Shown here piece after piece: positions 2,836 to 17,144 of a stretch of 64,000 nt of DNA. Position numbers and translations under genes: made by a program. Under the pieces are notes generated by a model. The model did not search any database and had not been told where the DNA came from. It saw nothing but the letters and a program-made list of their open reading frames with translations. Position 1 is the first letter of the stretch. Each line of letters starts with the position of its first letter. The DNA is from Armatimonadota bacterium (GTDB taxonomy: Bacteria > Sysuimicrobiota > Sysuimicrobiia > Sysuimicrobiales > Kaftiobacteriaceae): assembly GCA_031081675.1 (NCBI GenBank), contig JAVHLZ010000005.1:12881-76880 (forward strand). The letters are read 5' to 3'.

Positions 2836-2888
2836 GTGGCCGGTCCGTGCGGATCCGAGGGCGGGCGTCCGGGGAGAGGAGGGGGACG

Positions 2889-3749
2889 ATGGAGATCCGA
2901 CGCGTCGGGGTGGTGGGATGCGGGGTGATGGGCGCCGGCATCGCGGAGGTGTGCGCCCGCGGCGGCTACGAGGTGACGGTGGTGGAGGTCACCGACGACC
3001 TGCTGGCCCGGGGGCTGCGGCGGGTCGAGGAGTCGATGAGGCGGGCGGTGGAGCGCGGGAAGATCACCGCGGACGAGATGGCGGCCGCCCGGGAGCGCAT
3101 CCGCGGCACCACCCGCCTGGAGGACCTGGCCGGCGCCGACCTGGTCATCGAGGCCGTGGTCGAGCGCATGGACGCCAAGAAGGAGGTCTTCGCCCGGCTG
3201 GACACGGTGTGTCCGCCGTACACCCTGTTCGCCAGCAACACCTCGTCCCTGTCGATCACCGAGCTGGCGTCGGCCACCGCGCGGGCTGACCGGGTCCTGG
3301 GGCTGCACTTCTTCAACCCCGTGCCCGTGATGAAGCTGGTGGAACTGATCCGGGGCCTGCAGACCTCGCCCCAGACGGCGGCCATCGGCCGCCGGTTTGC
3401 CGAGTCCCTGGGCAAGACCGTCGTGGAGTGTCGGGACAGCCCGGGGTTCATCGTCAACTTCCTGCTGGTGCCCTACCTGCTGGACGCGGTGCGGGCCCTG
3501 GAGCGGGGGATTGCCTCCCGGGACGACATCGACACGGCGGTGGTGCTGGGGCTGGCCCACCCCATGGGCCCTCTGCGGCTGCTGGACCATGTGGGCCTGG
3601 ATACCACCTACCACATCGCCGAGGCGATGTTTGCCGAGTTCAAGGATCCCCGCTATGCCGCTCCTCCGCTGCTCAAGCAGATGGTGGCGGCTGGCCGTCT
3701 GGGCCGAAAGTCCGGCAAAGGGTTTTACGACTACGAGGGGGGCGGCTGA
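2889..3749 (+). CDS. hbd: 3-hydroxybutyryl-CoA dehydrogenase
   Basis: NAD(P)-dependent oxidation of 3-hydroxybutyryl-CoA to acetoacetyl-CoA (or the reverse). The 286-residue product has the Rossmann dinucleotide motif GCGVMGAGIAE at residues 10-20, ASNTSSLSITEL near 115, the catalytic-histidine segment GLHFFNPVPVMKLVE near 138, DSPGFIVNFLL near 180 and the C-terminal dimerisation domain ending GRKSGKGFYDY. Start ATG 2889 has a strong GGGGAGAGGAGGGGG ribosome site. It ends the first plus-strand run and is convergent with the thiolase/DUF35 operon. With the acyl-CoA dehydrogenase, mutase and thiolases nearby it fits a butyryl-CoA oxidation route. Confidence 0.95.
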   Translation: MEIRRVGVVGCGVMGAGIAEVCARGGYEVTVVEVTDDLLARGLRRVEESMRRAVERGKITADEMAAARERIRGTTRLEDLAGADLVIEAVVERMDAKKEVFARLDTVCPPYTLFASNTSSLSITELASATARADRVLGLHFFNPVPVMKLVELIRGLQTSPQTAAIGRRFAESLGKTVVECRDSPGFIVNFLLVPYLLDAVRALERGIASRDDIDTAVVLGLAHPMGPLRLLDHVGLDTTYHIAEAMFAEFKDPRYAAPPLLKQMVAAGRLGRKSGKGFYDYEGGG

Positions 3750-3793: not shown

Positions 3794-4615
3794 CTACGCC
3801 TGGGGCAGGGGACCGGCCGGCCCCAGGCGGTACAGGCGTCGGGTGAGGGGCGCCGCGGCGCGGGCGAACAGGGCAGCCGCCTGCGCCGCCAGCGCGTCCC
3901 GCTGCCGCGCCGGCGCCAGCAGGCAGGCGTGCTCGTGGGGGACGGCCAGCAGCGGGTCGTCCATCCCCGCGGGGACCAGCAGGTCGCCCACCAGCAGCCG
4001 GGCGGCGTCGTAGCCGTCCAGGGCCACGTAGTCGGTCCGGGGCCCGCCGATCTCCCGCAGGATGTGCCGGGTGCGCTCCCGCAGGTTGTCGCACGCCCGG
4101 GCGTGCAGTCCGTCCAGGCCCATGCCCCAGGCGCGCACCATGCCCTCGGTCACGTACGTCACCTGGTGGTAGCCTTCGATGACGTAGATCACCGCCACCT
4201 CGGCGTCCACGCTCCGCCGCGCCAGCCGCGTCTCCGGGGGGTAGTCGTCGGAGGGGGGGAGGCGGTCCTGCCGGCGCAGCAGGGGGAACAGGCGGCCCGC
4301 CACCAGCGCCCATGGGGGCGGGGCGACGGGGGGAATCCGGCGGCGCAGCGCGCGGGCCAGCGCGTCGGCCACGCGCGCCGCCGGCAGCCGCCGCAGGCAC
4401 GCGTCCAGGTAGGCCACCTGAAGGTCCACCTCCAGCTCGTAGCCCCAGACGCTGCAGATCATGCCCCGGTGGGTCTGGCGCCGGCAGGCGATGTCGGGGG
4501 TCTGGTCCAGGGCCGACCGCACCTCCGCCCGGAACCGCTCCCATCCCCGCCAGGCGGCAGTCGCCGCGGCGGCCGCCAGCAACGTCCCCGCCGCCCCCGC
4601 CAGCCAGCCGTCCAC
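3794..4615 (-). CDS. DUF1444 (YtpQ)-like protein with an N-terminal membrane anchor
   Basis: 273 residues. An N-terminal Ala/Leu-rich hydrophobic helix (about residues 4-22) is followed by a soluble region. Near residue 140 the sequence VAVIYVIEGYHQVTYVTEGMV and then HARACDNLRERT resemble the core of DUF1444/YtpQ proteins, in which a conserved acidic strand precedes a 'vteedl..w' element. It is the last gene of the minus-strand thiolase operon, 4 bases after the DUF35 stop. The job of the family is unknown, and the match is by pattern only, so this could also be a distinct hypothetical family. Confidence 0.5.
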   Translation of the reverse strand: MDGWLAGAAGTLLAAAAATAAWRGWERFRAEVRSALDQTPDIACRRQTHRGMICSVWGYELEVDLQVAYLDACLRRLPAARVADALARALRRRIPPVAPPPWALVAGRLFPLLRRQDRLPPSDDYPPETRLARRSVDAEVAVIYVIEGYHQVTYVTEGMVRAWGMGLDGLHARACDNLRERTRHILREIGGPRTDYVALDGYDAARLLVGDLLVPAGMDDPLLAVPHEHACLLAPARQRDALAAQAAALFARAAAPLTRRLYRLGPAGPLPQA

Positions 4616-4619
4616 GGCG

Positions 4620-5117
4620 TTACCCGCGCGGCGCGAACCCGACGATGTCGGCCAGGGTGCCAGTCCGGCGTCGCGGGGGGCGGAGTACGGCCCGCACGGG
4701 CATGTCGATGAAGACGTCGGAGGCCGACACCTGCACCAGCCGGCTCACCAAGCCGCCGTCGGTGCCGTCGATGCGGACCAGAGCCACCACCTCGGGGTGA
4801 GGCAGGCGATGGCCGTCGAGGTCGGCGTGGACGACGGCGAAGGTGTGCACCCGCCCCGTCGGCTCGACTTCGGACCAGGCCTGGGACAGATCGGAAAAGC
4901 AGCGCTCGCAGTACAGGCGGGGAGGCAGGTACGTCAGGCCGCACGCGGCGCACCGGGTGACGGCCAGCCGCCCCCGGTCCTTCAGGGTGGACAAGAACCG
5001 CTGTCCGGCCACCCCCGCGGTGTACCGGTAGCTGACCGGCATCGTCCCCGGCCACACCCGATAGCGCTCCGCGCCGGGGGAGCCGGCTGCCTGTCGGCGG
5101 CGCTCAGGGGCGGACAT
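4620..5117 (-). CDS. DUF35 Zn-ribbon/OB-fold acyl-CoA-associated protein (complete cysteine set)
   Basis: 165 residues: a rubredoxin-like Zn ribbon near residues 54-75 (CAACG ... CERC, all four cysteines present), then an OB-fold β-barrel. DUF35 proteins pair with thiolase-fold enzymes and form part of the acyl-CoA channel, as in archaeal thiolase-HMG-CoA synthase complexes, BbsA of toluene degradation and the DUF35 domain of ChsH2. Its start overlaps the upstream DUF35 gene by 14 bases, so the two should be made together. Two DUF35 and two thiolase-like genes in one operon suggest two pairs or one hetero-oligomer. Confidence 0.85.
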   Translation of the reverse strand: MSAPERRRQAAGSPGAERYRVWPGTMPVSYRYTAGVAGQRFLSTLKDRGRLAVTRCAACGLTYLPPRLYCERCFSDLSQAWSEVEPTGRVHTFAVVHADLDGHRLPHPEVVALVRIDGTDGGLVSRLVQVSASDVFIDMPVRAVLRPPRRRTGTLADIVGFAPRG

Positions 5118-5673
5118 GGCTTTTCACCGGGGCGAAGTGCAGGATGTCGGTGATGGCGCCGGTGCGCCGCGCGGCCGGCTTCCACACCGCCCGCACCGGC
5201 GTGCCCACCGCGATCTGGCGGCGGATCTCCTCCACCGTGCGTCCCCGCACACCCCCGATCAGGTGCAGGAATCCCCCGCGGGGGGAGGTGCCGTCAATCT
5301 CGATGACCGCCGGAATCTGCGGGCGGCGCAGCGGCTTCATGTCCCAGGTGATGTAGCAGATGGAGAAGGTGTTGATGGTCCCGGTGTCGGGCAACTCCAC
5401 CCACTCGTCCATGGGGCGGAAGTCCAGCTCGCAGAATACCCGGGGCGGGGTGACCGTGCGCCCGCACGCCCGGCAGCGGACCCCCAGGATCCGCCCGTCC
5501 CGCAGGCCCGCCAGAAAGCGCGAGATCGCCTCCCCCGCATCCCACGCGTACTCCAGGGCCGGCGTCCAGCTCGCCACCGACGCCCGCGCCATCTCCTCGT
5601 CGCTGAGGGGCGTGCCCCGGGGAGCGCGGGGAGGCGCCGCCGGCGTCTCGCGGGACAGGCGGGGCCGGGCCAT
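5104..5673 (-). CDS. DUF35 Zn-ribbon/OB-fold protein (fourth Zn ligand replaced)
   Basis: 189 residues, longer at the N-terminus than its neighbour (a Pro/Arg-rich lead of about 25 residues, then a helical segment). The Zn ribbon near residues 76-95 reads CRACG ... CELD, so the fourth cysteine is aspartate and metal binding may be altered. The OB-fold follows (TINTFSICYITW, VIEIDGTSPRGG). Start ATG at 5673 overlaps the stop of the preceding thiolase gene (TGATG), tight translational coupling. Probably a partner subunit of one or both thiolase-fold proteins. Confidence 0.82.
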   Translation of the reverse strand: MARPRLSRETPAAPPRAPRGTPLSDEEMARASVASWTPALEYAWDAGEAISRFLAGLRDGRILGVRCRACGRTVTPPRVFCELDFRPMDEWVELPDTGTINTFSICYITWDMKPLRRPQIPAVIEIDGTSPRGGFLHLIGGVRGRTVEEIRRQIAVGTPVRAVWKPAARRTGAITDILHFAPVKSHVRP

Positions 5674-6860
5674 CAGCGCACCCCCAGGACGACCACGGTG
5701 CCGATCTGCATCAAGTCCCCCCACGCCTGCGCCACCCCGCGCTCCGGGTTGCCGGGGACCTGCCGGGCGCCCGCCTCCTGGCGGAGCTGCCAGAACAGTT
5801 CGCAGACCTTCATCAGCCCCGCGGCAGCGATGGGGTTGCCCACACCCATCAGGCCCCCGGACGGGCAGGACGGCAGCTCGCCGGTGCGGTCGAAACGGCC
5901 GGCCGCCAGGTCCTCGGGGGCCTTGCCCCGGTCCGCCAGCAGAAGCCCCTCCAGGTGGTGCAGTTCCTTGTAGGCAAACGGGTCGTAGGGCTCGGCGATG
6001 TGGATCTGGCGGCGCGGTTCGGTGATCCCCGCCATCGCGTAGGCCATCCGGGCGGCCCGCTCCACGTAGCGGGGGTAGGCGAGGTCCCGGTTGCCCCAAT
6101 ACGACGTGTCCAGCGACCACCCCACGCCCTGGATCCACACCGGGCGGTCGGTCAGGCGCGGGGCCAGGTCCTCGGCGGCCAGGACCACCGCGGCGGCGCC
6201 GTCGCTGACCGGGCTGACCATCAGGCGGTGGACCGGCCACGCCACCACCTCCGAGGCCAGGACGTCCCGCACCGTCAGGTCCGCCGCCACCTGGGCGCAG
6301 GGGTGGGCCAGGGCGTTGCGCTTGTTCTTGACCGAGACCAGGGCGATGTCCTCGTTGCGGATGCCGTAGGCGGCCATGTAGCGCTGCTGCTCGAGGGCGA
6401 AGATCCACAGCAGGTTGGGACCCAGGGGGCGTTCCAGGATGTGGTCGAAGATGGTCAGGAAGGCCGCCTGGGGGTGGGGCTGGCAGCTGCTCATCTTCTC
6501 CTCGGCCACCACCAGCGCCAGGTCGCACAGGCCCGAGGCCACCAGCGACCAGCCGCTGATGATGCTGAAGACCCCGGATCCCCCGCCCACGTACGCGCGC
6601 AGGTAGGGCCTGCGGACCCCCCCGGCGCCGTCCAGCAGCCACTCGCCCTTCATGTGCACCCCGTCGAAGGCGTCGGGCGCCGTGGCCATCACCACGGCCT
6701 GGACGTCCCGGAGCCGGACGCCGGCCGACTCCAGAGCCTGCGAGGCGGCGTAGTAGGCCAGTTCCTTGCCGGTCTCCAGAGCGCGGCGCATGAACAGAGT
6801 CATACCCGCCCCCACCACCGCCACCCGCCGCCGCGGCCTGCGCCCCATGGTCCCGTCCAC
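5673..6860 (-). CDS. Thiolase-fold protein (SCP2/lipid-transfer type) lacking the canonical active-site cysteine
   Basis: About 395 residues with the SCP2-thiolase pattern: VAVVGAGMTLF at the N-terminus, EKMSS, SVKNKRNALAHP, VSDGAAAVVLA and CPSGGLMGVGNP. Where a catalytic thiolase has A-C-A-S-G this protein reads GGGSG, and the late GHP histidine is replaced in VGNPIAA. It is therefore unlikely to act by the normal Cys-His Claisen mechanism. Known Cys-less relatives include the retro-aldolase Ltp2, which works with a DUF35 partner. GTG 6860 is chosen because GGAGG lies 6 bases upstream; ATG 6848 is the alternative. Second gene of the operon. Confidence 0.8.
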   Translation of the reverse strand: MDGTMGRRPRRRVAVVGAGMTLFMRRALETGKELAYYAASQALESAGVRLRDVQAVVMATAPDAFDGVHMKGEWLLDGAGGVRRPYLRAYVGGGSGVFSIISGWSLVASGLCDLALVVAEEKMSSCQPHPQAAFLTIFDHILERPLGPNLLWIFALEQQRYMAAYGIRNEDIALVSVKNKRNALAHPCAQVAADLTVRDVLASEVVAWPVHRLMVSPVSDGAAAVVLAAEDLAPRLTDRPVWIQGVGWSLDTSYWGNRDLAYPRYVERAARMAYAMAGITEPRRQIHIAEPYDPFAYKELHHLEGLLLADRGKAPEDLAAGRFDRTGELPSCPSGGLMGVGNPIAAAGLMKVCELFWQLRQEAGARQVPGNPERGVAQAWGDLMQIGTVVVLGVR

Positions 6861-6877
6861 GCCCGACCTCCGTTCCC

Positions 6878-8026
6878 CTACGCCGCTCCCAGGACCAGCA
6901 CCCCGCCGCTCTGGGTGGGGATCCCCCGCCAGGAGACCACAAGCCCCACGGTGGCACCCGCCACCTGCACCGGTCCGGCCTCTCCCCGGATCTGGCGGAC
7001 GGCCTCGACCACCCGGTACAGGGCCGAGGCATCGTAGCAGTGTCCCAGGCCCAGGCTGCCCCCGGAGGGGTTGACCGGCAGCCGCCCCCCGCGGCGGGTC
7101 TCCCCCTCCAGCACCATCCGCGCCGCCTCTCCCGGGGCGGCCAGGCGGACGGCTTCCAGGTGCTGGAGCTCCTTGTAGGCGTAGGTGTCGTCCACTTCCG
7201 CGAAGCGGATCTCGCGGGCGGGGTCGGACATGCCCGCCATCCGGTAGGCCATCTCGGCAGCCAGCGCGGCGTAGGATGCCTGTGCCCAGCCGCGGGTGGC
7301 CAGCCAGGGCGTGTCCGAGGCCCACCCGATGCCGCGGATCCACACGGGGCGGGGGCTGTGGGCAGCCGCCTCGGCCGACGCCAGGACCAGGACCACCGCC
7401 CCGTCCGCCGCCGGGCTGATGTGCATCTCGCGCAGCGGCTCGCACACCGGCAGCGACGCCCGCACCGCCTCGGGGTCCAGCAGCGCGCCGAACGCCGCGG
7501 CGGGATGGGCCAGGGCGTGCCGCCGGTTCTTCACGACCACCATCGCCACGGCCTGCTCGGGGGTGCCGGTCTCGTGCAGGTAGCGGCGCATCTCCATTCC
7601 GGCCACGTAGTGGGGGCTGATGCCCGGGAGGCGCTCGTAGATGGGGTCCAGGGCCAGGGCCAGGACCTGCCCGGGACGGCGGACGTTGCTGGCCTTGGCG
7701 TGCGCCTCCACCACCACCCGGTCGGCGATCCCGCTGCGGATGAGGGCCACCGCCGCCGCCACTCCCCCCAGGCCGTCGGCGGCCACGGTGTGCACCGGGC
7801 GCAGCACCGCGCCGAGCTGGTCGGGGACGTACTCGTCGGTGATGCTGGTACCTTCGTGGAAGTCTTCGGCGACGCTGACGACGCTGTCGACGTCGGCGGC
7901 GGTCAGCCCGGCGTCGGCATACGCCCGGGAGGCCGCCTCAAAGACCATCTCGCGGTAGGACCGGTCCGCCGAGACGGGACGCGGCGGCGTGGCCCCCACG
8001 CCCACGATGGCCACGCGGTCGGTCAC
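6878..8026 (-). CDS. Second thiolase-fold protein lacking the active-site cysteine
   Basis: 382 residues, clearly paralogous to the next gene (VAIVGVGATP, VVKNRRHALAHP, AADGAVVLVLA, NPSGGSLGLGHC). The segment normally holding the nucleophilic cysteine reads VAADGLGG; no cysteine lies in the N-terminal half, and the GHP motif is GHC. It differs from its neighbour in which catalytic positions survive: this one keeps the late histidine, the other does not. A heteromeric complex with shared or remodelled active sites is plausible. GTG 8026 has an AGGA site 8 bases upstream. First gene of the minus-strand operon, divergent from the acyl-CoA dehydrogenase. Confidence 0.8.
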   Translation of the reverse strand: MTDRVAIVGVGATPPRPVSADRSYREMVFEAASRAYADAGLTAADVDSVVSVAEDFHEGTSITDEYVPDQLGAVLRPVHTVAADGLGGVAAAVALIRSGIADRVVVEAHAKASNVRRPGQVLALALDPIYERLPGISPHYVAGMEMRRYLHETGTPEQAVAMVVVKNRRHALAHPAAAFGALLDPEAVRASLPVCEPLREMHISPAADGAVVLVLASAEAAAHSPRPVWIRGIGWASDTPWLATRGWAQASYAALAAEMAYRMAGMSDPAREIRFAEVDDTYAYKELQHLEAVRLAAPGEAARMVLEGETRRGGRLPVNPSGGSLGLGHCYDASALYRVVEAVRQIRGEAGPVQVAGATVGLVVSWRGIPTQSGGVLVLGAA

Positions 8027-8180: not shown

Positions 8181-9341
8181 ATGGACCCTCCGCCTATGGA
8201 CTTCCGGCTGACCGACGAACACCGGATGGTCCAGGCTGCGGTGCGGGAGTTCGCCACCCGGGACGTCCTGCCCCGGGCCGCCGAGCTGGACCAGACCGGT
8301 GCATTTCCCGCCGACCTGATCCGCCGCGCCGCCAGCCTGGGTCTGATGGGCATGACCGTGCCGGAGGAGTACGGCGGCGCCGGGTTGGACGCCATCAGCT
8401 ACGTGATCGCCCAGGAAGAGCTGGCGCGGGCGTCCGCCGGCCTGCAGACCATCATCACCGTGAACAACTCCCTGGTGTGCGACCCCCTGGTCCGCTTTGG
8501 CACCGAGGAGCAGAAACGCCGGTACCTGCCGCGGCTGTGCTCGGGGGCGTCCCTGGGATGCTACTGCCTCACCGAGCCCGCGGCGGGTTCGGACGCCATG
8601 GCCCTGCAGACCACCGCCCGCCGCGACGGCGACACCTGGGTCCTGCGGGGCACCAAGGTGTTCGTCACCAACGGGGTGGAGGCCGACGTGTGCATCGTGT
8701 ACGCCCGCACCGGCCCCGAGCCGGGCGGGCGGGGCCTGTCGGCGTTCATCGTGGAGAAGGGCGCCCCGGGCATCGCCGTGGGCAAGGTGGAGAAGAAGCT
8801 GGGGATCACCTGCTCGTCCACGGCCGAGATCGTCCTGGACGACTGCCGGGTGCCCGCCGACAGCCTCCTGGGGGAGGTGGGGATGGGCGGGCGCATCGCC
8901 CTGAGCACCCTGGATGGGGGACGCCTGGGCATCGCCGCGCAGGCGGTGGGGATCGCCCGGGCCGCCCTGGAGGAAGCCACCGCCTACGCCGCCACCCGGC
9001 GCCAGTTCGGCCGACCCATCGCCGAGTTCCAGGCCATCCAGTTCGCGCTGGCCGACATGGCCACCCGCATCGAGGCCGCCCGGCTGCTCCTGTACCGGGC
9101 AGCCTACCTGCGCCAGCAGGGGCTCCGCCACACCCGGGAGGCCTCCATGGCCAAGCTGTACGCCTCGGAGACCGCCATGTGGGCGGCCCACCGGGCGGTC
9201 CAGATCTTCGGCGGGTACGGGTACGTGCGGGACTATCCGGTGGAGCGGTACTTCCGGGACGCCAAGATCACCGAGATCTACGAGGGGACGTCGGAGATCC
9301 AGCGGCTGGTGATTGCCCGCCACCTGCTGCAGAACCCGTAA
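8181..9341 (+). CDS. Acyl-CoA dehydrogenase (short-chain/butyryl type)
   Basis: FAD-dependent α,β-dehydrogenation of an acyl-CoA, passing electrons to the ETF encoded directly downstream. 386 residues (381 if the ATG at 8196 is used, which gives the typical MDFRLTDEH start). Family segments include CYCLTEPAAGSDA, TKVFVTNG, GRIALSTLDGGRLGIAAQAVGIA and the C-terminal catalytic-glutamate element EIYEGTSEIQR. It precedes etfB by 18 bases. In this setting butyryl-CoA or 2-methyl-branched short acyl-CoA is the likely substrate; chain-length preference cannot be read with certainty. Confidence 0.93.
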   Translation: MDPPPMDFRLTDEHRMVQAAVREFATRDVLPRAAELDQTGAFPADLIRRAASLGLMGMTVPEEYGGAGLDAISYVIAQEELARASAGLQTIITVNNSLVCDPLVRFGTEEQKRRYLPRLCSGASLGCYCLTEPAAGSDAMALQTTARRDGDTWVLRGTKVFVTNGVEADVCIVYARTGPEPGGRGLSAFIVEKGAPGIAVGKVEKKLGITCSSTAEIVLDDCRVPADSLLGEVGMGGRIALSTLDGGRLGIAAQAVGIARAALEEATAYAATRRQFGRPIAEFQAIQFALADMATRIEAARLLLYRAAYLRQQGLRHTREASMAKLYASETAMWAAHRAVQIFGGYGYVRDYPVERYFRDAKITEIYEGTSEIQRLVIARHLLQNP

Positions 9342-9359
9342 GGGAGGGGGAGGCCCGCC

Positions 9360-10136
9360 GTGCGCGTCGTCGTCTGCATCAAGCAGGTGCCGGACACCGA
9401 GGCGCCCATCCGCATCCGCCCCGACGGTGCCGGGATCGACGAGTCGGGGCTGTCTTTCGTGATGAACTACTACGACGAGCACGCCACCGAGGCCGGCCTG
9501 CGGCTGCGGGAGCAGTTCGGAGGCACCGTGACCCTGGTGAGCGTGGGACCCGAGCGGGCCCGGGACGCCCTGCGCACGGGGCTGGCCATGGGCGCCGACG
9601 AGGCCATCCTGGTCTGCGATCCGCGCCTGGACGCGGCCGACCACCTGGGGGTGGCGCGGGTGCTGGCGGCAGTGATCCGCACCCTTTCCTGGGATGTGGT
9701 GATCTGCGGCAAGATCAGCACCGACGACAACGCCGGGATCGTGGGGCCCGCCCTGGCCGAGTACCTGGGGGTCCCCCAGGCGACGGCCATCGCCCGCCTG
9801 GAGGTGGATGCCTCGGGCTCCCGGGCGGAGGTCCACCGCGAGGTGGAAGGAGGCGTGGAGGTCCTGGAGGTGCCGCTGCCGGCGGTCCTGACGGTGGAGC
9901 GCAGCCTCAACGAGCCGCGCTATCCGTCGCTGCCGGGCATCATGAAGGCCAAGCGCACCCCCATCCGCACCCTGACCCTGGCAGACCTGGGCCTGGACGC
10001 GCCGGCCGCCCGGACAGTCCTGACCCGCCTGGAGCCCCCGCCGGCCCGCCGGGCGGGGCGGATCCTCCAGGGTGAGCCTGACGAGGTCGTGCGGGAGATC
10101 GTGCGGTTCCTGCGGGAGCAGGCGAAAGTCCTCTGA
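9360..10136 (+). CDS. etfB: Electron transfer flavoprotein, beta subunit
   Basis: 258 residues starting GTG 9360, with the opening MRVVVCIKQVPDTEAPIR, the mid-protein VICGKISTDDN and the conserved RYPSLPGIMKAK near residue 190 that contacts the α subunit. It carries electrons from the adjacent acyl-CoA dehydrogenase to the membrane quinone pool through an ETF dehydrogenase not seen here. A GGAGGGGGAGG site precedes the start. Ten bases separate it from etfA. Confidence 0.95.
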   Translation: MRVVVCIKQVPDTEAPIRIRPDGAGIDESGLSFVMNYYDEHATEAGLRLREQFGGTVTLVSVGPERARDALRTGLAMGADEAILVCDPRLDAADHLGVARVLAAVIRTLSWDVVICGKISTDDNAGIVGPALAEYLGVPQATAIARLEVDASGSRAEVHREVEGGVEVLEVPLPAVLTVERSLNEPRYPSLPGIMKAKRTPIRTLTLADLGLDAPAARTVLTRLEPPPARRAGRILQGEPDEVVREIVRFLREQAKVL

Positions 10137-10146
10137 GGAGGGGGCC

Positions 10147-11136
10147 ATGGGTGCGGACGTGTGGGTACTGGTCGAGCACAGCCAGGGGCGGCCCACGCGC
10201 CTCAGCCTGGAACTGCTGACCTGTGGCCGCGGGCTGGCGCGGGAGACGGGAGGGCGCCTGGTGGCCGTGGTACCCGGGCACAGGGTGGAAGATGCGTCGC
10301 GGGTGGTGGCCGAGCGGGGCGCCGATCTGGTCCTGAGCGCCGACCACCCCGTGCTGGAGCCCTACACCACCGACGCCTACGCCGCGGTGCTGGCCGAGGC
10401 GGTGCGGGAACAGGATCCCGCCGTCCTCCTGGTGGGCAGCACGGCCCAGGGCCGGGACCTGGCCCCCCGGCTGGCGGCGCGGGTGCAGGCGGGCGTCGTC
10501 ACCGACTGCACGTCGGTGGCCGTGCGGGATGGCGCCCTGGTGGCCACCCGTCCCATGTACACCCGCAAGGCCATCGCGACGGTGCGGGTGGAGGGGGCCG
10601 GACCGCGGATTGCCGTGGTCCTGCCGGCGATGTACCCGGTGGCACCGCCCGCGGACCGGCCCGGCGAGGTGCGCCCCTGGCCCGTGCGCCTGGAGGCATC
10701 GTCCCTGCGGACCCGGGTGAAGGAGATCCGCGCCCTCAGCAGGGACACGGTGCCGCTGGCGGAAGCGGACGTGGTGGTCAGCGGGGGCCGCGGCATGCGG
10801 GGGCCGGAGAACTTTGCCCTGCTGGAGGCCCTGGCCCGCGAGCTGGGAGGGGCGGTGGGGTCGTCGCGGCCCCCGGTGGACTCGGGATGGGTGCCCCACG
10901 ACTACGAGATCGGGCAGACGGGCAAGACCGTGAGCCCCCAGGTGTACATCGCCTGCGGCATCTCGGGAGCCCCCCAGCACCTGGCGGGGATGTCCGGGTC
11001 GAAGTTCATCATCGCCATCAACAAGGACCCCAACGCGCCCATCTTCCAGGTGGCGGACCTGGGCGTGGTGGGCGACCTGTTTGACATCGTCCCCCGGCTC
11101 ACCGAGGCCGTGCGGGCCGCCAAGGCGTCGGCCTGA
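10147..11136 (+). CDS. etfA: Electron transfer flavoprotein, alpha subunit
   Basis: 329 residues. The C-terminal FAD-binding half is typical: [34 protein letters not shown], then [13 protein letters not shown] and [13 protein letters not shown] 10147 follows TGAGGAGGGGGCC, an excellent ribosome site that overlaps the etfB stop. It forms the FAD-carrying heterodimer with EtfB. No extra ferredoxin domain is present, so the classical, non-bifurcating role is the simpler reading, though bifurcation cannot be ruled out by eye. Confidence 0.95.
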
Positions 11137-11180
11137 CCGGCGTCCGCGCCGGCCTCACGCCGGGGACGGAGGTGGTGGCT

Positions 11181-12860
11181 GTGTCGACATCCGAGGAGAT
11201 CGCCCGGCTGGCCCGGGAGCGCCGGCGGTGGGAGGAGACTACCCTGGCCGAGTCCCTGGCGCGGCAGCCCGAGCGGCCGGTGCGCTTTGCCACCCTGTCG
11301 GAGGCCGAGGTGGCCCGCCTGTACACGCCCGAGGACCTGCCGGGTTTCGACTACCTGCGCGACCTGGGCTTTCCCGGGGAATATCCGTTTACCCGCGGCA
11401 TCCATCCCACCATGTACCGGGGCCGGCTGTGGACCATGCGCCAGTTCGCCGGATTCGGGTCGGCCGAGGACAGCAACCGGCGCTTCCACTATCTGCTGGC
11501 CCAGGGCCAGACCGGCCTGTCGGTGGCGTTTGACATGCCCACCCTGATGGGCTACGACTCCGACCATCCCCGGGCTCGGGGGGAGGTGGGCCGGGAAGGG
11601 GTGGCGGTGGACACGGTGCTGGACATGGAGATCCTGCTCCGGGATCTGCCCCTGGACCGGGTCACCACCTCCATGACCATCAACGCGCCGGCCAACGTGC
11701 TGCTGGCCATGTACATCGTGGCCGCCGAGCGGGCGGGGTACCGGTGGGACCAGCTGGGTGGGACCACCCAGACCGATATCCTCAAGGAGTTCATCGCCCA
11801 GAAGGAGTGGATCGTGCCCCCCCGGCCGTCGATGCGGCTGATCCAGGACATGCTGGTGTTCGGCACCCGCCACCTGCCCCGGTGGAACGTGCTGAGCATC
11901 AGCGGCTACCACATGCGGGAGGCCGGCGCCACCGCCGTGCAGGAGCTGGCGTTCACCCTGGCCGACGGCATCGCCTACGTGCAGGCCGGCATCGAAGCGG
12001 GGCTGGACGTGGACGCCTTCGCGCCGCGGCTGTCGTTCTTCTTCGACTGCCACAACGACTTCTTCGAGGAGATCGCCAAGTTCCGGGCTGCCCGGCGCCT
12101 GTGGGCGCGGATCATGCGGGAGCGCTTCCGGGCCCGCCACCCGCGCTCGTGGTGGCTGCGCTTCCACACCCAGACCGCCGGGGTGTCGCTGACGGCCCAG
12201 CAGCCCCTGAACAACATCGTGCGGGTGGCCCTGCAGGCGCTGGCGGCGGTCCTGGGCGGCACCCAGTCCCTGCACACGAACTCCATGGACGAGACCTATG
12301 CGCTGCCCACCGAGGAGGCGGTGACGGTGGCCTTGCGCACCCAGCAGATCATCGCCTACGAGAGCGGCGTCACCCACACGGTGGATCCCCTGGGCGGGTC
12401 CTACTATGTGGAGGCCCTCACCAACCGCATGGAGGCCGAGGCCGAGGCCTACATCCGCACCATCGACGAGATGGGCGGGATGGTGCGCGCGGTGGAGCTG
12501 GGCTTCCCCCAGCGGGAAATCGCCGAGGCCAGCTACCGCTACCAGCAGCAGCTGGAGCGCAAGGAGCGCATCATCGTCGGGGTGAACGAGTTCGTGGTGC
12601 CGGAGGAGCGGCCCATTCCCATCCTGCGGATCGACCCCGAGGTGGAGCGCCGGCAGATCGAGCGCCTCCGCCGGGTCCGGGCCGAGAGGGACGCCCGGCG
12701 GGCCCGCGCGGCCCTGGACGCCCTGGCGCGGGCGGCGGAGGGGTCGGGGAACACCATGGAGGCCGTGGTGGAGTGCGTCCGGGCCCACTGCACCCTGGGG
12801 GAGATCTGCGACGTCTTCCGGGCCGTGTACGGGGAGTACAGGGAGCCGGCGATCATCTAG
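11181..12860 (+). CDS. icmA: B12-dependent acyl-CoA mutase large subunit, predicted isobutyryl-CoA mutase (IcmA)
   Basis: 559 residues covering only the TIM-barrel substrate domain of the methylmalonyl-CoA mutase family ([42 protein letters not shown]). The catalytic histidine is present in SISGYHM at residue 244. The residues that set substrate choice read Phe89 (MRQFAGFG) and Gln207 (EFIAQKE). In this family Tyr/Arg marks methylmalonyl-CoA mutase, Phe/Gln isobutyryl-CoA mutase and Ile/Gln 2-hydroxyisobutyryl-CoA mutase. It should therefore interconvert isobutyryl-CoA and n-butyryl-CoA. GTG 11181 lies 8 bases after GGAGG; GTG 11172 is the alternative. The cobalamin subunit is the next gene. 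Confidence 0.85.
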
Positions 12861-12888
12861 GACCCGGACGCGATCAGCCGTCAGCGAT

Positions 12889-12927
12889 CGGGATCGGGGA
12901 TCGGCCGGGCCCCGATCCCGGATCCCG
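12889..12927. promoter_or_regulatory. 16-bp near-perfect hairpin between icmA and icmB
   Basis: CGGGATCGGGGATCGG (12889-12904) pairs with CCGATCCCGGATCCCG (12912-12927) with one mismatch and a 7-base loop. There is no T-tract after it, so a simple intrinsic terminator is unlikely. TAAGAT at 12931-12936, just after the stem, could be a weak -10 for icmB. The hairpin may act as an mRNA-processing or stability element that sets the ratio of the two mutase chains. Confidence 0.6.
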
Positions 12928-12946
12928 TAGTAAGATAGAGGGTGCC

Positions 12947-13360
12947 ATGGCGGCATCCACCGTGAGGATCCTCATCGCCAAGCCGGGCCTGGACGGGCAC
13001 GACCGCGGGGCGAAGGTGGTGGCCCGGGCGTTGCGGGACGCCGGGTACGAGGTGATCTACACCGGGCTGCACCAGACCCCGGAGATGATCGTCAACGCCG
13101 CCATCCAGGAGGACGTGGACGCCATCGGGTTGTCCATCCTGTCCGGCGCCCACATGACCCTGCTGCCCCGGGTGGTGGAGCTGCTCCGGGAGCGGGGAGC
13201 CGACGACATCGTCGTGTTCGCCGGCGGGATCATCCCGGAGGAGGACATCCCCGCGCTGCGGGCGGCGGGCATCCGCGAGGTGTTCCTGCCCGGCACGTCC
13301 CTGCAGTCCATCGTCCAGTGGGTGGCCACCCACGTCCGGCCCCGCGGCGTGGCCGCCTGA
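12947..13360 (+). CDS. icmB: Cobalamin-binding small subunit of the acyl-CoA mutase (IcmB-like)
   Basis: 137 residues, a complete B12-binding domain with the base-off/His-on ligand in LDGHDRG (His18), the SILSGAH loop near residue 64 and the [10 protein letters not shown] glycine turn near residue 91. It pairs with the large subunit encoded 86 bases upstream; in many mutases this domain is fused to the C-terminus. No MeaB-type GTPase chaperone is in the window. Specificity resides in the large chain, so the icmB name follows from that call. Confidence 0.9.
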
Positions 13361-15968: not shown

Positions 15969-17144
15969 CTACAGGGCTTCCACGGCCACCGCGACGGCTT
16001 CGCCTCCGGCCAGGCAGACGGCGGCCACGCCCCGGCGCGCTCCGTGGCGGGGCAGGGCGTGCAGCAACGTGGTGAGGATGCGGGCGCCGCTGCACCCGAT
16101 GGGGTGCCCCAGGGCCACCGCCCCGCCGTGCACGTTCACCCGGTCCAGGGACAGTCCCAGGTCGCGGCAGACGCCGAGGACGACGGCGGCGAAGGCTTCG
16201 TTGATCTCGAACAGGTCCACATCCTCCAGACGCCAGCCCACCTTGTCCAGCAGGAGGCGGATGGCGCGGGCGGGGGCGATGGTGAACCACTCGGGTTCCA
16301 GGGCGGCGGTGGCCTGCCCCACCACGCGCGCCAGGGGCTGGACGTCCATGCGCCGGGCGGCGTCCGCGGAGGCCAGGACCACCGCCGCGGCGCCGTCGCT
16401 GATGCTGCTGGCGTTGGCCGCCGTGACGGTGCCCCCCTCCTCGAAGGCCGGCCGGAGGGCGGGGATCCGCGCGAAGTCTACCCGCCGGGGCTCCTCGTCC
16501 TCGGCCACGAGCCGGGTGCCGCCGTCGGAGGGCACCGGGACCGGGGCGATCTCGGCGGCGAACAGGCCGGTGTCCAGGGCTTCCAGGGCCCGGGTATAAC
16601 TGCGGCGGGCGAAGTCGTCCTGCTCCTCCCGGCTGATCCGGTATTCCCGCGCCAGCAGTTCGGCGCAGTTGCCCATGTGCAGGCGCCGGTAGGCGTCCAC
16701 CAGCCCGTCCTGGAGGAGGGCATCCACCAGGGTTGCGTCGCCCAGGCGCAGTCCCGTCCGGGCGCGGGGCAGGAGGTAGGGGACGGCGCTCATGTTCTCC
16801 ATGCCGCCCGCCACGACCACCTGCGCGTCGCCGGCGGCGATCGCCTGGGCGCCCAGCATCACCGCCTTCAGGCCCGAGCCGCACATCTTGTTGACGGTGG
16901 TCGCGGGCACCGAGGAGGGCAGGCCGGCGTACAGGGCCGCCTGCCGGGCCGGAGCCTGGCCCACGCCGGAGGTCAGGACCTGGCCCATGATCACCTCGTC
17001 CACCCTCTCGGGCGCCACCCGGGCCCGACGCAGGGCCTCGGCGATGGCCACCGCCCCCAGCCGCGGGGCCGGCACCGCCGCCAGTCCGCCCAGGAACCTC
17101 CCGATGGGGGTGCGCGCTGCGCTGAGGATCACGATGTCGCCCAT
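15969..17144 (-). CDS. atoB: Acetyl-CoA acetyltransferase (thiolase)
   Basis: 391 residues with an intact thiolase active site: nucleophile Cys88 in NKMCGSG, NEAFAAVV, and HGGAVALGHPIGCSG with the catalytic histidine. The second cysteine lies in VCLAGGEA, a slight variant of the usual CxGGG. It condenses two acetyl-CoA to acetoacetyl-CoA or cleaves the latter. This is the only thiolase in the window with a normal catalytic set, so it is the one expected to complete butyrate-type oxidation. Followed directly by the permease; divergent from lysA. Confidence 0.95.
   Translation of the reverse strand: MGDIVILSAARTPIGRFLGGLAAVPAPRLGAVAIAEALRRARVAPERVDEVIMGQVLTSGVGQAPARQAALYAGLPSSVPATTVNKMCGSGLKAVMLGAQAIAAGDAQVVVAGGMENMSAVPYLLPRARTGLRLGDATLVDALLQDGLVDAYRRLHMGNCAELLAREYRISREEQDDFARRSYTRALEALDTGLFAAEIAPVPVPSDGGTRLVAEDEEPRRVDFARIPALRPAFEEGGTVTAANASSISDGAAAVVLASADAARRMDVQPLARVVGQATAALEPEWFTIAPARAIRLLLDKVGWRLEDVDLFEINEAFAAVVLGVCRDLGLSLDRVNVHGGAVALGHPIGCSGARILTTLLHALPRHGARRGVAAVCLAGGEAVAVAVEAL

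Follow-up and report, generated by a model that had tools for sequence, protein, structure and literature searches.

DUF35-dependent aldol chemistry is known from steroid breakdown, where two described systems combine a thiolase-fold protein with a DUF35 partner: the Ltp2-ChsH2(DUF35) retro-aldolase (6ok1) and the bile-acid aldolase Sal-Shy(DUF35) (9myr). For Sal, Tyr302 was reported to be essential and the Gly at the Cys site was stated to preclude thiolysis (PMC12329534). Furthermore, as cited in PMC6273163, Ltp3 and Ltp4 of Rhodococcus are two thiolase-like aldol-lyases, both essential for the C24-branched sterol side chain. Here we analysed a stretch of 64,000 nucleotides from an Armatimonadota bacterium (assembly GCA_031081675.1, contig JAVHLZ010000005.1, positions 12,881 to 76,880), hereafter the window, which carries on its minus strand, at 4620-8026, four genes transcribed in the order thl2, thl1, dufB, dufA and encoding two thiolase-fold proteins without the nucleophilic Cys and two DUF35 proteins. 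This four-gene set is ancient and strictly ordered, its range extends from archaea of the Sulfolobus type to numerous bacteria, and the residues of Thl1 tentatively point to an enzyme of the aldolase type.

The active sites of Thl1 and Thl2 were compared in one alignment with solved relatives, and residues were counted over 85 Thl1, 78 Thl2 and 77 DufB sequences. At the positions of the nucleophilic Cys, the HDxF His and the GHP His, acetoacetyl-CoA (coenzyme A) thiolases, BbsB and SCP2 thiolase read C/H/H, and the same three positions read G/Y/Y in Ltp2, G/Y/Q in Sal, G/Y/H in 4u4e and G/Y/N in Thl1 (Table 1). Gly at the Cys site together with Tyr in YDxF is common to Thl1, Ltp2 and Sal and occurs in no aligned Cys thiolase; the parallel with Ltp2/ChsH2 that had been drawn in an earlier note, made from the letters of the window alone, therefore holds for Thl1, the only one of the two proteins to carry this pair. 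The same note had claimed that both thiolase-fold proteins have lost the nucleophilic Cys, and the alignment indeed shows none at the normal site, nor was a Cys found there in any of the 163 sequences (85 Thl1 and 78 Thl2). The GNP motif that it had picked out in Thl1 is real, with N338 in 85/85 sequences, and GHC of Thl2 is real in the window but not conserved among the 78 orthologues, where the GHP position varies (H in 36, Y in 16, N in 11), so that GHC was rejected as a defining motif. More telling is a change left unremarked there, the replacement of the HDxF His by Tyr288 in Thl1 (85/85) and by Asp279 in Thl2 (69/78). Moreover, the polar residues Y288, D289, N338, E295, H297, H298 and E116/E117/K118 of Thl1 are kept in nearly all 85 sequences, and E54, D55, D64, E65, H109, K111 and D208 of Thl2 are invariant or nearly so. 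Since the catalytic residues are gone, ordinary thiolysis is excluded, and the residue pattern indicates that the Thl1/Thl2 complex is incapable of thiolysis by the usual covalent route.

A genome scan of GTDB yielded 317 relatives, from which 80 loci (numbered with the prefix L below) were kept for locus analysis. A survey of the conservation of the four genes, suggested in the earlier note, showed the set complete and in the order thl2-thl1-dufB-dufA in 75 of the 80, while the other five end at contig ends just after thl1 or dufB. The loci belong to CSP1-3/Armatimonadota, Chloroflexota, Acidobacteriota, Planctomycetota, Deltaproteobacteria, Krumholzibacteriota, Actinobacteria, Symbiobacterium, Bathyarchaeota and others. 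Thl1 is the best-conserved protein of the set (66-88% identity across phyla) and Thl2 diverges faster. Because of this conservation across phyla, chance is excluded as an explanation, and the observation is stronger than a reading of the sequence alone could show. Thl1 matches the NCBIfam family PRK06065 with 637 bits, over the curated cut-off of 455, and Thl2 is nearest to PRK06066 with 418 bits, under the curated cut-off of 516. Of 41 genomes from the window's order and its surroundings, 17 encode a Thl1 that exceeds the cut-off, next to the second protein, and Thl1 was found in 39 of 200 genomes of Thermoproteota; the PRK06066 cut-off was passed in 2 of 12 other genomes. One control genome each scored over the two cut-offs, that for PRK06065 being Sulfolobus acidocaldarius, a genetically tractable host of the Thl1 family. 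The uniqueness of the set implied earlier was thus not upheld, since it represents two NCBIfam families that are widespread; both are named only 'thiolase domain-containing protein', with no function attached, and neither is named in any paper of the literature searched. One Dehalococcoidia locus (L096:5815-8630, minus strand) also holds a second, diverged thl2-thl1-dufB set, with 35-37% identity to the window proteins and divergent from the ordinary set, whose Thl1-like protein likewise has the Gly, the Tyr (YNAF) and the Asn. In four Chloroflexota loci (L067, L069, L070, L092) a predicted secreted protein of ~850 amino acids is encoded <2 kb downstream of dufA.

In a maximum-likelihood tree of 58 proteins, with a midpoint root only, Thl1 and Thl2 each formed one group (100/100) and were each other's nearest (97/94), and both the Ltp2/Sal/4u4e clade (100/99) and the Cys thiolases (95/77) stood apart from them. 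Thl1 is accordingly placed as a protein that, judged by its residues, would work like the Ltp2/Sal group without belonging to it. The thiolase fold of Thl1 and Thl2 was seen with Foldseek (TM, template modelling score, 0.79-0.92 to 6et9/6esq), and Pfam assigned Thiolase_N and Thiolase_C_1 to Thl1 and Thiolase_C_1 to Thl2. The AlphaFold2 (AF2) model of Thl2 has a mean predicted local distance difference test score (pLDDT) of 87 and its best PDB match is the archaeal thiolase 7yvy (Foldseek); that of Thl1 has a pLDDT of 69, which falls under 50 in loops 290-295 and 331-339, and was rejected as a source of active-site geometry since these loops are too uncertain.

DufA and DufB both pass the Pfam gathering scores for zf-ChsH2 (zinc ribbon) and OB_ChsH2_C, and the closest solved structure to the DufA profile is 3irb, SSO2064 of Sulfolobus solfataricus (83 bits). 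Their genes adjoin the thl genes in all untruncated loci. In four actinobacterial loci (L071, L075, L082, L111) Thl1 and DufB are one protein, DufA being separate there, as is Thl2 where the contig reaches it. These natural Thl1-DufB fusions show that DufB pairs with Thl1, in line with the earlier proposal that a thiolase-like subunit pairs with a DUF35 subunit, and by elimination DufA would pair with Thl2. The loss of a Zn ligand that had been noticed in DufB is real (Cys to Asp84) but confined to near relatives (8/77), and we rejected it as a functional hallmark.

Table 1. Genes and residues of the four-gene set and neighbouring genes in the window
Feature	Position	Strand	Description
thl2	6878..8026	-	Cys-less thiolase-fold protein, 382 amino acids, GTG start
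thl1	5673..6848	-	Cys-less thiolase-fold protein, 391 amino acids, likely catalytic subunit
dufB	5104..5673	-	DUF35 protein (zf-ChsH2 + OB_ChsH2_C), 189 amino acids, partner of Thl1
dufA	4620..5117	-	DUF35 protein with four Zn cysteines, 165 amino acids, by elimination partner of Thl2
Thl1 Gly89	6582..6584	-	Nucleophilic Cys position; Gly in 85/85; aligns with Cys of 7yvy/6esq/BbsB and Gly of Ltp2 and Sal
Thl1 Tyr288 (YDPF)	5985..5987	-	HDxF His position; Tyr in 85/85; equivalent to TcLtp2 Tyr294, CtSal Tyr302
Thl1 Asn338 (GNP)	5835..5837	-	GHP His position; Asn in 85/85; equivalent to TcLtp2 Tyr344, CtSal Gln352
Thl2 Asp84	7775..7777	-	At or <=2 residues from the Cys position; D in 69 and E in 9 of 78
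Thl2 Asp279	7190..7192	-	HDxF His position; D in 69/78
DufB Asp84	5422..5424	-	In place of the fourth Zn cysteine (CxxC...CxxD); D in 8/77, C in 68/77
Acyl-CoA dehydrogenase	8181..9341	+	Pfam, NCBIfam; divergent from thl2; conserved neighbour in relatives
EtfB and EtfA	9360-10136, 10147-11136	+	Electron-transfer flavoprotein beta and alpha
Acyl-CoA mutase large subunit	11172..12860	+	Isobutyryl-CoA-mutase-type residues F92/A119/Q210
B12-binding mutase small subunit	12947..13360	+	Open frame; adjoins the large subunit in relatives too
3-hydroxyacyl-CoA dehydrogenase	2880..3749	+	Pfam 3HCDH
Canonical Cys/His thiolase, AtoB type	15969..17144	-	PF02803 match; motifs CGSG, NEAF, GHP, CLAGGEAV

The genes of the set are closely packed, with a gap of 29 bp between thl2 and thl1 and overlaps of 1 bp (thl1/dufB) and 14 bp (dufB/dufA). 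An operon of 3794-8026 had been proposed; its four genes stand, but the fifth (3794-4615, minus strand, 273 amino acids), which begins 4 bp after dufA and whose product weakly matches the hypothetical family PRK13668 (E 1.6e-4), is a local neighbour only and was rejected as a member of the system, since only near relatives have it. On the other side, thl2 diverges from a plus-strand run of acyl-CoA dehydrogenase (ACAD), EtfB, EtfA and the mutase large and small subunits (8181-13360), and the AtoB-type thiolase lies ~8 kb from the set. The Etf pair (window 9360-11136; L023, L024, L028, L033, L038) has ~65-75% identity in some relatives and 37-47% in others at the same position, an identity jump within a conserved gene block that looks like an in-situ replacement of EtfB/EtfA.

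The closest solved protein to the mutase of the window is 2-hydroxyisobutyryl-CoA mutase (HCM; 620 bits), with ~490-515 bits against the human and Propionibacterium methylmalonyl-CoA mutases (MCM). In the alignment its F92/A119/Q210 stand against I/D/Q in 4r3u and Y/A/R in 2xij, with Phe and Gln at the MCM Tyr89 and Arg207 positions and without the HCM Asp117. Phe/Ala/Gln (F/A/Q) at the substrate positions is what we take to be the isobutyryl-CoA mutase pattern. The link with an isobutyryl-CoA mutase, first drawn from this one locus, proved to extend to neighbouring genes in several phyla and to co-occurrence in most core-bearing genomes tested. F/A/Q mutases lie beside the set in L050 (Acidobacteriota), in L098 (Bdellovibrionota), in the window's own class and in the archaeal loci L066, L088, L104, L107, L117 and L118; in L070 a mutase 10 kb from the set is of the methylmalonyl type. 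Twenty core-bearing genomes have no mutase in the fetched locus, and 17 of them carry an F/A/Q mutase elsewhere; only methylmalonyl-type matches were read for L075 and L094, and none for L092. The mutase as a strict partner was rejected, because the L092 genome is without one and the mutase also turns up in several relatives that lack the set.

Other neighbours differ by phylum, and a census for a constant substrate gene found no enzyme that is always adjacent. The L098 operon reads canonical thiolase - HBD - ECH - ACAD - mutase subunits - thl2 - thl1 - dufB - dufA, and in archaea the set is accompanied by ACADs, some of them upstream of thl2, by CoA ligases of the acetate/propionate type and by oxidoreductases of the indolepyruvate type (IorAB). 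Two canonical thiolases are present in the genome of the window, for which reason the set was rejected as the organism's only thiolase; with canonical thiolases there and also in the L098 operon, thiolysis is already covered. Taken together, the neighbours point to the metabolism of short, probably branched, acyl-CoAs without naming the substrate.

Of the three features diagnostic of Sal/Ltp2, Thl1 shows two, and its residues exclude thiolysis. An aldolase-type reading therefore has the best support, and we tentatively regard the set, with a confidence a little short of even, as a DUF35-dependent C-C lyase/ligase of the aldolase type for short branched acyl-CoAs. Thl1-DufB and Thl2-DufA would be joined, as a thiolase-type heterodimer, into one hetero-oligomeric enzyme, with Thl1 as the putative catalytic subunit acting like the retro-aldolases Ltp2 and Sal. 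Gly89 would give space and a backbone NH at the thiolase Cys position, Tyr288 would accept the proton of the beta-hydroxyl, a 3-hydroxyacyl-CoA would be cleaved at its alpha-beta C-C bond, and the acyl-CoA enolate would be protonated by a residue other than the equivalents of Ltp2 Tyr344 or Sal Cys304, neither of which is kept; the aldol direction would also be possible. The substrate of the complex, which we infer together with its activity, would probably be a branched short-chain acyl-CoA with a link to isobutyryl-CoA. Candidate reactions, none of which we prefer, are 3-hydroxyisobutyryl-CoA to propionyl-CoA and formaldehyde, 2-methyl-3-hydroxybutyryl-CoA to propionyl-CoA and acetaldehyde, and 3-hydroxyisovaleryl-CoA to acetyl-CoA and acetone. 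The fuller proposal, that such sets are widespread two-subunit Cys-less thiolase-fold C-C lyases/ligases which perform an aldol reaction on short branched acyl-CoAs related to isobutyryl-CoA by means of a new acid-base pair, is possible, if on the doubtful side. Several findings weigh against the aldolase-type reading. Thl1 falls outside the Ltp2/Sal clade in the 58-protein tree, the acid Tyr344 of Ltp2 is replaced by Asn338 and the acid Cys304 of Sal by Pro290, and the Thl1 model is weak precisely in the active-site loops. In addition, the set has no recurring gene for a hydratase or for the handling of an aldehyde or ketone, a search of the complete L092 genome, which holds the set, gave no mutase match, and relatives from the window's order that are without the set also carry an F/A/Q mutase.

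Thl1 lacks all three canonical catalytic positions, DUF35 proteins have been proposed as acyl-CoA carriers (SSO2064 paper) and no single enzyme constantly neighbours the set, all of which would suit a non-catalytic scaffold for acyl-CoA binding or channelling, that is, pseudoenzymes holding CoA intermediates for a nearby mutase, dehydrogenase or ligase, a model likened to the DUF35 role in the thiolase/3-hydroxy-3-methylglutaryl-CoA (HMG-CoA) synthase complex. However, the invariant polar replacements in Thl1 are unlike a degenerate scaffold, and the best-conserved protein of the set is Thl1 itself, so we consider this unlikely. We regard as rather unlikely that Thl2 is the chemical subunit, with D/E84 and Asp279-Asp280 as a new acid-base centre for hydration, decarboxylation or isomerisation and Thl1 as its partner or next step. 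The acidic residue at 84 is present in 78/78 sequences, the seven further polar residues of Thl2 listed above are (near-)invariant and the set has no hydratase gene, but the register at the Cys site could be off by as many as 2 residues, the GHP position varies freely, and Thl2 diverges faster than Thl1, as a supporting subunit would.

The aldolase-type residues leave the direction of the reaction unfixed, and the same chemistry might be anabolic, in a biosynthetic aldol ligase that would join mutase-supplied isobutyryl-CoA or propionyl-CoA with an aldehyde or ketone to a branched precursor. In Bathyarchaeia the set adjoins genes of the mevalonate type (for an HMG-CoA-synthase-like protein, a Cys thiolase and a DUF35 protein), which fits such a role, yet oxidative neighbours (ACAD, Etf, HBD, CoA ligases, IorAB) dominate, making it quite unlikely in our view. 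Very improbable is an unusual thiolase (retro-Claisen) or condensing enzyme that would serve branched acyl-CoA beta-oxidation without the usual Cys: a Cys at the nucleophile site was seen in 0/163 sequences, Thl1 also lacks the HDxF and GHP His, and canonical thiolases stand in the same genome and operon, even though the fold is that of a thiolase (Foldseek), beta-oxidation genes adjoin and such is the usual annotation of thiolase-like genes in archaeal fatty-acid clusters.

Databases call Thl1 and Thl2 thiolases. Where fatty-acid pathways are reconstructed from annotation, the thiolytic step may be attributed to them. If the aldolase-type reading is true, DUF35-dependent aldol chemistry would reach central short-chain acyl-CoA metabolism in Bacteria and Archaea. 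On the fuller proposal above, a branched-acid pathway not described before would exist in many uncultured members of the Chloroflexota, Acidobacteriota, Bathyarchaeia and other groups.

Among known systems, BbsAB benzoylsuccinyl-CoA thiolase (7pxp) shares with the set the thiolase fold and a DUF35 subunit, but it cannot serve as the Cys-less parallel for which it had been taken, since BbsB keeps the Cys, the HDxF His (HDAF) and the GHP His and is a true thiolase. The multicomponent acyltransferase PhlACB (5m3k) also combines two thiolase-superfamily proteins, one of them inactive, with a DUF35 protein; it differs in having an active thiolase-superfamily subunit, PhlC, whose catalysis uses Cys, and only one DUF35 protein, whereas both thiolase-fold subunits of the set are without the Cys. 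One structure-search match was the C88S variant of a homologue. ST0096 of Sulfolobus tokodaii (4yzo), another Cys-less thiolase fold and among the closest solved structures, differs in that both active-site His are kept. Ltp3/Ltp4, likened to the set by description and not by sequence, act in steroid degradation. The Ltp2 system resembles Thl1 in the Gly that replaces the nucleophilic Cys, the YDxF Tyr and a separate DUF35 partner, but has Tyr344 at the GHP His position (Asn338 in Thl1), His296 in YDHF (Pro290 in Thl1), a single thiolase-like subunit and a DUF35 domain within the hydratase chain, and belongs to a separate clade. Sal, of the same clade apart from Thl1, depends on Cys304 of its YDCY, where Thl1 has Pro, has a C3H1 zinc finger and acts on steroid substrates; it shares with Thl1 the Gly at the Cys site, the catalytic Tyr (in YDxY) and an amide residue at the GHP position, Gln352 in Sal and Asn338 in Thl1.

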